Shown piece after piece: positions 54,776 to 58,325 of a stretch of DNA of 64,000 nucleotides. Every line of letters starts with the position of its first letter. Position 1 is the first letter of the stretch. A program made the position numbers and the translations under genes. Source of the DNA: Acidobacteriota bacterium (GTDB taxonomy: Bacteria; Acidobacteriota; Vicinamibacteria; Vicinamibacterales; JAKQTR01); contig JAPKZO010000023.1 of the NCBI GenBank assembly GCA_026393755.1, positions 1 through 64,000 of the forward strand, given 5' to 3'. Under the pieces are notes generated by a model, which was not told the DNA's origin, did not search any database, and saw nothing but the letters and a program-made list of their open reading frames with translations.

Positions 54776-55180
54776 CTACTTCTTGGCGTGCGGGCTTTTC
54801 ACCGACTCGTGGGTATGTTTCGCCTTGGTCACGAGCACCAGATAGCCGTCCTCTCCGGGGACCTGCAGTTCAGAGAGGTAGAGTTTGCCGTTGAGCTTGT
54901 CAAAGACCACTTCCGCATCTGTCAGGGCCTTGCGCTCGGAGATGCGCGTCTCAACCGGCAGGAGCACGCCGGCCTTCTTCACGTTCATCGGCTCCAGATT
55001 GAGGACATCGCGCGTGCCGTTCGCGACGAGGGAGTACGAGCCAGCCACGAAGGTCTGACCGCGTGCCACGAAATCGAAGGACGTCTGGAAATTGTACCGC
55101 TCCTGGGCGAGCGCCGGCCGACTGCCTGCCACGACCACGAGTGCGACTGCCACGACTCTGAGTAACCTGCGAAGTCTCAT
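54776..55180 (-). CDS. Small secreted protein with conserved upstream element
   Basis: This 134-residue protein has a signal peptide (LLRVVAVALVVVAGSRPALAQ) and a beta-rich mature part (YNFQTSFDFVARGQTFVAGSYSLVANG, LSELQVPGEDGYLVLVTKAKH). Such small exported proteins are frequent in Acidobacteriota and have no known role. AGGAGG precedes the ATG strongly. The promoter region holds the conserved 55222-55286 element shared with the STAS gene, and the two-component system lies directly upstream, so control by that response regulator is likely. The 224 bp after the gene (54552-54775) show no feature. Confidence 0.72.
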   Translation of the reverse strand: MRLRRLLRVVAVALVVVAGSRPALAQERYNFQTSFDFVARGQTFVAGSYSLVANGTRDVLNLEPMNVKKAGVLLPVETRISERKALTDAEVVFDKLNGKLYLSELQVPGEDGYLVLVTKAKHTHESVKSPHAKK

Positions 55181-55221: not shown

Positions 55222-55286
55222 GATGAGACGGCCGGCAGATGAGCCAGGGCCTTAAGCCAGGATTAATTGCGCTTAATTTTCTCGTG
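55222..55286 (-). promoter_or_regulatory. Conserved element A: GATGAGACG + TTAAT direct repeats
   Basis: On the plus strand GATGAGACG (55222-55230) is followed 38 bp further by GGATTAATTGCGCTTAAT (55260-55277) and TCGTG (55282-55286). TTAA boxes recur at 10-11-bp spacing (55252, 55263 and 55273), as in tandem sites of OmpR/PhoB-type regulators. The same layout with the same 38-bp spacing occurs at 58260-58325. It lies 42 bp upstream of the secreted-protein start codon at 55180. Confidence 0.65.
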
Positions 55287-55346
55287 ATTCGGGATGGACG
55301 CTGCCGGCGCGCCTGAAAGGCGCTCAACGGGCCGTCGCCGGGGTCG

Positions 55347-55377
55347 CCCCGGGGCTGTCGAGCGACAGCGGCCGGGG
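55347..55377 (-). terminator. Hairpin after the histidine kinase gene
   Basis: GCTGTCG/CGACAGC (55354-55369) forms a stem extended outwards by CCCCGG (55347-55352) and CCGGGG (55372-55377). It begins directly after the kinase stop codon on the minus strand and would end the two-component operon before the next gene. No T-tract is present. Confidence 0.55.
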
Positions 55378-56781
55378 TCAGGCTCGACCGACTGGCAACG
55401 TGACGGTAAACGTGGAGCCTTCACCGAGCCGGCTCTCGACACTCGCCGTCCCGCGGTGTTGTTCCGCAATCCATCTGACCAGGCTGAGGCCGAGTCCCGC
55501 ACCCTCAGTCGCGGGCGAACGGGCGCGATCGGCCCGAAAGAAGCGCTCGAACACATGTGGAGCATCTTCGATCGACAGACCGATGCCGGAGTCCTCCACG
55601 TCTATCCGGGCCATGTCGGCCTGCCGGGAGAGTCGCACCACCACCCGGCCATCCTCCTCGGTGAACTTCAGGGCGTTTCCAAGAAGGTTCAGCAGCAGCC
55701 GCCGGAGCCAGCCGGTGTCTCCGTCGACGATCACAATCCCTGACTTCTCGCAGCTCAACGAAATGGATCTCGCCTGAGCGACCGGTTCGAGCTGCTCAAC
55801 GAGAGAGGCTGCCAGATCTCCGAGATCGACCGGCGCAAACGTCAGTCGAATCTGTCCAGCCTCGGCGCGGGCCAGAGTCAGGATCTGATCGATCAATCGC
55901 GTCAGCCTGTCGATCTCCTCAATCTCGCTCGACAACACGCGCTGCTGTGCGTCGCTCGTGCCCGGAATCCGAAGGGCCAGCTCAATCTCGCCCCGTAGCG
56001 CCGCCAGCGGCGTGCGCAATTCGTGCGCCAGCGCGGCGCTGAACTGACGCATTTCTCCGACGGCGTGTTCCAGACGGCCGAGAGTCTCGTTGAACGCGTA
56101 CGCGACCCGATCGAGTTCATCGTCTGCTCCCCGAACAGGCAGACGGTAATCGAGGGTCGTCACGTCGATCTGTCGCGCTGCCCCAGCCATCCGCGAGAGG
56201 GGGCGCAAGGCTACACCGGAAAGCCACCACGCGCCGAACGCGGCGGCGAGCAGCGCTGCCGGCACGGGCCAGAGCAGCAGGTCTCGATAGCGCCCCAACG
56301 CGGCATCCATCGGGGCCAGGGGGACTCCCACCTGCAGGAGATACGCGGCGTGGCCCGGCAGCGTCCTCAGGCTGGAGGCCACGCGAAGCCGGCCATACGC
56401 GGTCTCGACATCGAATCGTGTCGGCTGAGCGCGAAACGCTCTGACCTCGGCGGGAGTCAGCTCGAGACCGAGAGACGTAAAGCCGCTCGACGTCGCAAGA
56501 CGACGCCCCGTCTCGACATCGTAGACCCGGAAGTACCTGGTCGCCTCGTGGACAAACGCCGCCTGGTCGTTGTCGCTGGCATCGAATGCGACCGAGGCGG
56601 TGTCGCCACCCAACTGCAGATACCCGTGAAGGCCGTCTGTCAATTGCGTGAGGCGTTCGGTGACGTCGGCGTCGAGCCACCGGTCCAGCAGTTGATAGGA
56701 CCCGATGCTGAATGCCGCGAGCACTACCCCGAACACGACCGTGGAGATCGCCGCCAGCCGGGCGCGCAACGACAGGATCAT
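55378..56781 (-). CDS. Sensor histidine kinase
   Basis: This 467-residue membrane kinase has an N-terminal membrane helix (LAAISTVVFGVVLAAFSIGSYQLL), a periplasmic sensor region of about 130 residues, a second helix (LLLWPVPAALLAAAFGAWWLSG), a HAMP-like linker, a HisKA dimerisation domain with phospho-His in ALAHELRTPLAALRG, and an HATPase domain with N box LLNLLGNALKFTEEDG, G1 DSGIGLSIEDA and G2 GAGLGLSLVRWIAEQH. It is translationally coupled to the response regulator (4-bp overlap). The signal is unknown. Confidence 0.93.
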   Translation of the reverse strand: MILSLRARLAAISTVVFGVVLAAFSIGSYQLLDRWLDADVTERLTQLTDGLHGYLQLGGDTASVAFDASDNDQAAFVHEATRYFRVYDVETGRRLATSSGFTSLGLELTPAEVRAFRAQPTRFDVETAYGRLRVASSLRTLPGHAAYLLQVGVPLAPMDAALGRYRDLLLWPVPAALLAAAFGAWWLSGVALRPLSRMAGAARQIDVTTLDYRLPVRGADDELDRVAYAFNETLGRLEHAVGEMRQFSAALAHELRTPLAALRGEIELALRIPGTSDAQQRVLSSEIEEIDRLTRLIDQILTLARAEAGQIRLTFAPVDLGDLAASLVEQLEPVAQARSISLSCEKSGIVIVDGDTGWLRRLLLNLLGNALKFTEEDGRVVVRLSRQADMARIDVEDSGIGLSIEDAPHVFERFFRADRARSPATEGAGLGLSLVRWIAEQHRGTASVESRLGEGSTFTVTLPVGRA

Positions 56782-57455
56782 GACGGCGAATCGGTGAGGA
56801 TGTAGCCCACGCCGCGGATGGTGCGAATCAGGGGAACGGCGAATCCCCTGTCAATCTTGTTTCGCAGCGAATTGATGTGCACTTCGACGACGTTGCTGAT
56901 GCTGTCGAAGTGGATGTCCCAGACGTGCTCGATGATCAGGGTCTTCGGCAGCGGCCGATCGGCGTGCTGCATCAGAAACTCGAGGAGCGCGTATTCCTTG
57001 GGTTTCAGGTCGATGGCGGTTCCGCCTCGCCGCACGCTCCGACGAACGGTGTCCAGTTCGAGGTCGGCGACGCGCAACACGCTCTCCCTGGGTTCTCCGC
57101 GCCTGAGCAGCGCCCGGAGGCGAGCCGACAGCTCAGCCAGCGCAAACGGCTTCGTCATGTAATCATCCGCGCCGGCATCCAGACCCGTCACGCGATCGTC
57201 CAGCGAGTCTTTCGCCGAGAGAATGATCACGGGAAGTGACGCCTTCCACGCGCGGATGTCGCGGAGCACCTGGAACCCGGACCGGCCCGGCAGCATCAAG
57301 TCGAGTACGACCGCGTCATAGTCGATCGTGCGAGCCTGCTCTCCGGCCCCGGCGCCGTCGTGAAGAAGGTCGACGGCGTAGCCCTCCTGCTCCAGGCCGG
57401 TCTGGATGAAGCTCGCAACTTTCCGATCGTCTTCAATCACCAGGACGCGCATCAT
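56778..57455 (-). CDS. OmpR/PhoB-family response regulator
   Basis: This 225-residue regulator has a receiver domain with acidic pocket IEDDRK, phosphoacceptor Asp52 in VVLDLMLPGRSG and Lys in ILSAKDSLDD. A winged-helix DNA-binding domain follows (LKPKEYALLEFLMQHADRP, NVVEVHINSLRNKIDRGF, LIRTIRGVGYIL). OmpR-type proteins bind direct repeats with 10-11-bp spacing, which matches the TTAA repeats in the two elements that flank this operon. The gene is first in the operon with the kinase. Confidence 0.94.
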   Translation of the reverse strand: MMRVLVIEDDRKVASFIQTGLEQEGYAVDLLHDGAGAGEQARTIDYDAVVLDLMLPGRSGFQVLRDIRAWKASLPVIILSAKDSLDDRVTGLDAGADDYMTKPFALAELSARLRALLRRGEPRESVLRVADLELDTVRRSVRRGGTAIDLKPKEYALLEFLMQHADRPLPKTLIIEHVWDIHFDSISNVVEVHINSLRNKIDRGFAVPLIRTIRGVGYILTDSPS

Positions 57456-57784
57456 CTACCCCGCGTTGGTTGGCGGATGCCGGGACGCTGGCCCACAGTC
57501 CTGCGGGAACCCGCTTTCACGCCCTCACAATACAGGGAGTGCGCCCTGGGCAACAAGTGGCTGCATCATCATCAGCCTGGCCTGCGGTGGGTCGGCTCGG
57601 CCGGACGCGGAGGTCGCGTACGCGCTCGTCCGACGCGGAATTCGAGCACCGCGTCGGGGACGGGCTCTTCTCGAGATGGACTGGCCAGATGAGGTGCCCG
57701 TGACCTCTCTGTTCACTCTTGAACACCTCCTGGTGCCGGTTCATCCCGGTCTGGCGCCATGCACCCGCGCACGCCCGGTGGCGC
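57456..57784. other. Non-coding gap between response regulator and STAS gene
   Basis: I see no gene in these ~330 bases; short frames here have no family features. The region contains the upstream sequence of the two-component operon and the 3' end of the STAS transcript. No distinct promoter or hairpin stands out. Confidence 0.4.
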
Positions 57785-58144
57785 TCAATGGGGCACGGTT
57801 GCCTGCTCAAAGCTGGCCAACGCCTCTGGTTCGTCCTCGAAGCAGTCGAACACCGTCACGAGCTTCGTCAACACCAGGAGATCGTTGAGCCGCTTGTTGA
57901 CGTTGACCAGCTTGACGGCCGCGCTCCGGTTCCGCGCGGCGGATTGCGCCTGGACGAGATCCCCGAGCCCGGCGCTATCCACATATCGCACGTGCCCGAG
58001 ATCGAGCACGAGACGGGTATGCCCTTCCTGAATGACGCGTCGAACGGTGTCCGCCACTCGAGGGACTCCGCTTCCAGTCATGGTGATGTCGCCCAGAATC
58101 GACAACACGACCACGTCTCCCACGGCCCGTTGCTGGATGTCCAT
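57785..58144 (-). CDS. STAS-domain protein (anti-sigma factor antagonist-like)
   Basis: This 119-residue single-domain protein has the STAS fold. The phosphorylatable Ser is in RYVDSAGLGDLVQ (S57), and strands around VVVLSILGDITMTG and AVKLVNVNKRLNDLL complete the family pattern. Such proteins bind an anti-sigma kinase and release a sigma factor when dephosphorylated. No anti-sigma kinase of the RsbW type is in the window, so the partner is elsewhere. The ATG at 58144 has a GAGGG upstream; an extension to 58243 is possible. It shares an upstream element with the secreted-protein gene. Confidence 0.85.
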   Translation of the reverse strand: MDIQQRAVGDVVVLSILGDITMTGSGVPRVADTVRRVIQEGHTRLVLDLGHVRYVDSAGLGDLVQAQSAARNRSAAVKLVNVNKRLNDLLVLTKLVTVFDCFEDEPEALASFEQATVPH

Positions 58145-58259
58145 GACACCCTCGCTCCCATGACGTGTGTCTTCCCGGAAGGACGGACCGCCCCGCGAAC
58201 CATGATGGTCGCCGCGGCGGTCCGCCACGCGCGCATTCGGCATCGTGCTCGTTCTATCC

Positions 58260-58325
58260 GATGAGACGATCGGTCCCCCGTCGGGGACATGAAGTCGGGA
58301 TTAATTGCACTTAATATTGATCGTG
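58260..58325 (-). promoter_or_regulatory. Conserved element B: GATGAGACG + TTAAT direct repeats, between STAS and PFOR genes
   Basis: GATGAGACG (58260-58268), GGATTAATTGCACTTAAT (58298-58315) and TCGTG (58321-58325) repeat the element at 55222-55286, with the same 38-bp distance between the first two parts. It lies 116 bp upstream of the STAS start codon in the 425-bp divergent region before the PFOR gene. No other gene is seen between 58145 and 58569; the PFOR frame remains open upstream to 58390 but without family similarity. Confidence 0.65.

Follow-up and report, generated by a model that had tools for sequence, protein, structure and literature searches.

Class II activation of the PhoB type uses direct repeats, spaced by approximately one helical turn, at the place where a -35 element would otherwise be. 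The enterobacterial regulator PmrA (also called BasR) recognises the PmrA box, CTTAAG-N5-NTTAAT (PMC3973317). For Desulfovibrio vulgaris, response-regulator motifs have been mapped by DAP-chip and gel shift (PMC3333781); there, as at the locus described here, regulator, motif and targets are conserved together across species, our own case being made by comparison only.

We found no published description in the literature of the two-component system considered below. It is encoded in a 64,000-nt stretch of DNA (the window), by a response regulator (RR) and a histidine kinase (HK) gene that are flanked by two copies of a shared element. The minus-strand order is element 2-STAS, RR, HK, element 1-secreted protein, and all four genes are on the minus strand. 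Our main reading, derived from sequence comparison, is that each element is a promoter and that the response regulator whose gene lies between them activates both directly, in PhoB/PmrA style. We put the probability of this at about 0.88. The features are as follows.

54776..55180, minus strand: small secreted protein, 134 aa, with an N-terminal signal-like segment; proposed element 1 target.
55223..55277, minus strand: element 1, predicted secreted-protein promoter (sequence, weight matrix trained on other genomes, profile match); box 1 ATTAAG 55277-55272, box 2 ATTAAT 55267-55262, box 3 CTTAAG 55256-55251, -10-like TCTCAT 55228-55223.
55378..56781, minus strand: HAMP histidine kinase, 467 aa, with a 4-bp overlap with the RR gene (Pfam HAMP/HisKA/HATPase_c; TIGR01386).
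56778..57455, minus strand: response regulator of the OmpR/PhoB family, 225 aa, which is proposed to bind both elements (Pfam Response_reg and Trans_reg_C).
57527..57556, minus strand: candidate sigma70-like RR-HK promoter, TTGTTG-N18-TATTGT, picked by eye; weak, and absent from the consensus scan.
57785..58243, minus strand: STAS-domain protein, proposed element 2 target (Pfam STAS; homolog alignments).
58261..58315, minus strand: element 2, predicted STAS promoter (same evidence as element 1); box 1 ATTAAG 58315-58310, box 2 ATTAAT 58305-58300, box 3 CTTCAT 58294-58289, -10-like TCTCAT 58266-58261.

The response regulator falls in the OmpR/PhoB family, with PF00072 and PF00486 both above cut-off. 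The STAS reading frame is probably over-extended; its start is more likely the ATG at 58144 than 58243, because most homologs align only from around residue 20-34. A start at 58144 leaves a leader of ~110 nt. The secreted protein has no Pfam or NCBIfam match, and relatives are found in 8 other genomes. No element lies directly upstream of the RR gene. Transcription of RR and HK by read-through from the STAS promoter, over a gap of 329 bp, is possible, and the candidate at 57556-57527 might be the operon's own promoter.

The original prediction was of one layout, occurring twice, with a fixed distance of 38 bp. Both copies are confirmed. GATGAGACG is at 55222-55230 and 58260-58268, while GGATTAATTGC(G/A)CTTAAT is at 55260-55277 and 58298-58315, each 38 bp after its GATGAGACG. 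Read on the minus strand, both elements are ATTAAG-N4-ATTAAT-N5-CTTMAK-N22-TCTCAT, with box 3 being CTTAAG in element 1 and CTTCAT in element 2. The half-sites are head to tail and about one helical turn apart, with steps of 10 and 11 bp, upstream of a -10-like hexamer; the same is true of the elements from other genomes. Element 1 also has a fourth half-site-like sequence, GCTCAT, one turn past box 3. The elements are directional, and the minus strand is that of the genes directly downstream, encoding the STAS and secreted proteins. PFOR, once suggested as a third target, is not supported: the element is directed to the minus strand, away from PFOR, whose likely ATG (58570, by eye) is ~255 bp off on the other strand. 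GATGAGACG had been taken as its own block of the element, but its reverse complement is the sequence around TCTCAT, and it corresponds to the apparent -10 region and not to an operator of its own. TCGTG is not supported as part of the motif: it recurs in both window copies, but the flank around it lacks conservation across 11 related genomes. Two further candidates were discarded. An ECF-sigma promoter reading of CGTCTCATC was dropped because at that place relatives have TCCAAT, TCAAAT, TGTAAT or TCTAAT, which are sigma70-like -10 sequences. A CtrA-type TTAA-N7-TTAA site does not fit the N6 spacing here, and the direct repeat continues into box 3.

How does this arrangement compare with the described systems? 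As for PmrA/BasR, an OmpR/PhoB-family regulator is paired with YTTAAK-like hexamers, head to tail, and has a similar recognition helix. The helix, SNVVEVHINSLRNKID, is near-invariant in all 13 orthologs described below; it is TNTLEVHIHNLREKIG in BasR/PmrA, with EVHI-x-x-LR-K common to both, and NTLDAFVRLLRQKVD takes its place in a paralog encoded in this genome. The published PmrA box is resembled by ATTAAT-N5-CTTAAG, in element 1, and by CTTAAT-N5-CTTAAT, in a more distant genome (G346). Note that, relative to the PmrA box, boxes 2 and 3 of element 1 have the half-sites in reverse order, and that box 3 of element 2 is CTTCAT. Unlike PmrA/BasR sites, the elements have three to four half-sites, with N4 rather than the canonical N5 between boxes 1 and 2. 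The targets also differ, and the regulator scores 197.2 bits against the NCBIfam PmrA equivalog NF007928, below the cut-off of 330, and by that criterion is not a PmrA/BasR ortholog. The heavy-metal systems CusRS, CopRS, SilRS and CzcRS are similar in other respects. The kinase only just passes the cut-off for the heavy-metal sensor kinase model TIGR01386 (293.8 bits against 292.55), and, among NCBIfam models, the regulator matches the heavy-metal response regulator model TIGR01387 best. However, the latter match is below cut-off (243.2 against 279.2), and no metal-efflux genes were recognised among element-led targets. With PhoB, the shared feature is direct repeats about one helical turn apart at the -35 place; the half-site here is different, and the mechanism is a predicted one.

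The original prediction held that such spaced, repeated blocks are not expected by chance. Allowing up to 3 mismatches, the 18-mer matches only the two element sites in the window, and has no match in 100 dinucleotide shuffles. By itself, GATGAGACG is common enough (1.26 expected per window), and it is the fixed spacing that matters. Across the whole 4.43 Mb genome, only the two element sites are found by the 18-mer with up to 2 mismatches, by GATGAGACG-N25-33-GGATTA, or by ATTAAK-N4-ATTAAT-N5-CTTMAK at 0 mismatches. At 3 mismatches, the 18-mer has one additional match genome-wide, inside an unrelated tandem array (C5:178055). Separately, three AATCACTCCGGGAGTRATT palindromes lie in tandem beside a gene at ~1490-1570 of L003 (G000:C5), and resemble a separate operator array. 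Profile searches gave the same picture. A sequence-only profile built without this genome has the two elements as its sole genome-wide matches at E<=10 (6.8e-4 for element 1 and 0.0047 for element 2). A position weight matrix trained on 21 elements from other genomes scores element 2 at 40.3 bits and element 1 at 36.9; the next place in the window scores 8.4, and three control loci score at most 7.9. When one genome at a time was left out of training, its own sites were still the top matches. An exact-motif scan of contigs from other genomes gave 50 scattered matches, mostly in unrelated phyla, which we took as chance. The outcome that the original prediction named as refuting it, a motif widespread in the genome and unrelated to promoters, was therefore not observed: the motif is not common elsewhere in the genome, and its only two sites are both before the regulator's neighbours.

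Searches of 162 genomes of the order, with the RR and with the HK, gave an identical set of 12 genomes, where HK was counted by full-length matches of at least 46% identity and RR is 74-82% identical or self. Matching architecture is near the RR/HK pair in 12 of these 12, with some sites a few kb off. Of the 12 genomes with the regulator, 10 have a strict pattern that is seen in 3 of the remaining 150 (Fisher p=7e-12); the figure of 10 is partly circular, because the ortholog loci in which the pattern was counted had also served to refine it. In addition, elements in other genomes were first picked by a search for repeats of the TTAA type, which leaves the counts in part dependent on the hypothesis; leave-one-genome-out scoring and the lack of other genome-wide matches lessen this circularity, without removing all of it. 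The remaining two regulator-bearing genomes, G023 and G096, have relaxed copies, whose departures from the pattern fall in box 1 or box 2. The strict-pattern matches without a regulator are in G081, G125 and G115. The first two have no full-profile score. That of G115 is weak (15.1 bits); this genome is of the same genus as G116, and the regulator may be missing from its incomplete assembly (87% complete).

Nearly all of the 21 elements from other genomes keep N4, N5 and then 21-22 bp to a TNNAAT-like hexamer, while the intervening bases vary; in one (G085, L145), both box 3 and the -10 are poor. Column conservation points to a fourth TCA at the next turn. Positions relative to the regulator differ. 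The element is downstream of the kinase in G060, G013, G051, G079, G096, G116 and G023; in G066 and G067, it is upstream of a small gene that itself lies ahead of the regulator; and it is divergent from the regulator in G096, G023 and G085. It is a few kb away in G065, and there are second sites elsewhere. Further element-like sites, in G085 and G116 (L145 ~676-730; L179 2459-2404, minus strand), are near similar large proteins containing PGWPGIEPRWTSSAKSGIGTALNRESRVWFT. Outside the order, 396 genomes were sampled from the phylum and yielded one further regulator, in G346 (RR 64% identical). Here, the 120-bp gap from HK to a DUF5666-like gene holds ATTAAT-N5-AATAAT-N5-CTTAAT-N5-CTTAAT; every step between hexamers is 11 bp, and at 21-22 bp no clear -10 is seen. 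Most branching in a tree of the 13 regulators is without resolution. The closest relative, G004, of the same genus, has neither the two-component system nor the elements; hence, the module is patchily distributed. None of the secreted-protein homologs that we read has an element upstream, so the element tracks the regulator and not the target family. Likewise, the STAS homologs read have none, except in G116, where STAS follows the kinase. Because the elements accompany the RR/HK pair in each related genome looked at that has it, and are found nowhere else in this genome, they are very probably landing sites of the regulator encoded between them. This co-conservation lends strong support to two parts of the original prediction: tandem OmpR/PhoB-type sites for that regulator, and a local regulon with the secreted-protein and STAS genes as targets.

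We propose that, once phosphorylated by the kinase, regulator dimers would bind the head-to-tail half-sites VTTAAS-N4-VTTAAT-N5-NNTMA, which follow one another on the coding strand with a period of 10 and then 11 bp. Since box 3 ends 22 bp ahead of the -10 hexamer TCTCAT, near the usual -35 place, the regulator would recruit sigma70 RNA polymerase in the manner of PhoB or PmrA. For this genome, the predicted output is limited to two genes, those of STAS and the secreted protein. The whole looks like a small self-contained switch.

The regulator might instead bind these sites and repress both promoters. Repression is known within the OmpR/PhoB family, and sites beside a -10 element could also block polymerase. 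However, no -35 hexamer is recognisable at the two element promoters, box 3 occupies nearly that place, and the 21-22 bp to the -10 element is kept across genomes. This fits activator-dependent promoters better, and we regard repression as unlikely. A consensus promoter scan found nothing, as would be expected of promoters that depend on an activator. Less credible again, and very improbable, is that another DNA-binding protein uses the repeats, with the two-component system a bystander. Such a protein might recognise the near-palindrome TTAAnYGCAnTTAA that boxes 1 and 2 form in the window copies, but the bases between boxes vary in relatives and box 3 is an extra direct repeat. Moreover, site presence tracks the RR/HK pair in the 162 genomes, and it is this pair that stays constant while downstream genes change. 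Least plausible of all is that the second copy arose by recent duplication of a promoter and has no regulatory meaning, or that it is a repeat-family remnant. The two copies are indeed alike over ~90 bp, but most differences are outside the boxes and -10, the genome has no third copy, and elements with equal spacing, otherwise of different sequence, occur in other families of the order.

If the regulator directly activates both promoters, its targets in relatives may hint at purpose. A small secreted DUF5666-like protein adjoins the system, or is behind an element, in 11 of the 12 genomes, all but this one; most such proteins are below the Pfam cut-off and were grouped by mutual similarity. 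One member also matches CusF, weakly. An element lies ahead of virJ-mprF in G079 and G085; in G065, the order is element, DUF5666-like gene, virJ-mprF. The virJ-mprF pairs, encoding a VirJ hydrolase and a lysyl-phosphatidylglycerol synthase, are at L153 6018-9316, L181 1003-4353 and L152 952-4042. The corresponding Agrobacterium operon, lpiA-acvB, is described as controlling lysyl-phosphatidylglycerol levels (PMC13197417). The STAS gene is element-led in two genomes, this one and G116, and G096 has an element-led protein weakly similar to the secreted protein (25% identity). Since the targets in relatives include the DUF5666-like protein and virJ-mprF, envelope stress is a reasonable guess at the purpose.

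The predicted regulon is new, and its kind is already known. Tentatively, and at rather less than even odds, RR, HK and box may form a compact, patchy module in which the DNA-binding code is kept across families and the controlled genes are swapped (a small secreted DUF5666/CusF-like protein in most, virJ-mprF, for lysyl-phosphatidylglycerol turnover, in three, STAS in two). It would then serve as a switch for envelope stress, acting in the way of PmrAB in bacteria far from the enterobacteria, and reduced here to two promoters. For a two-component system without a literature description that we could find, the analysis derives, from sequence alone, a binding code and the complete set of predicted targets. 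The recurring DUF5666-like and virJ-mprF targets offer a first guess at what the system is for, and a lead on function for a domain of unknown function.
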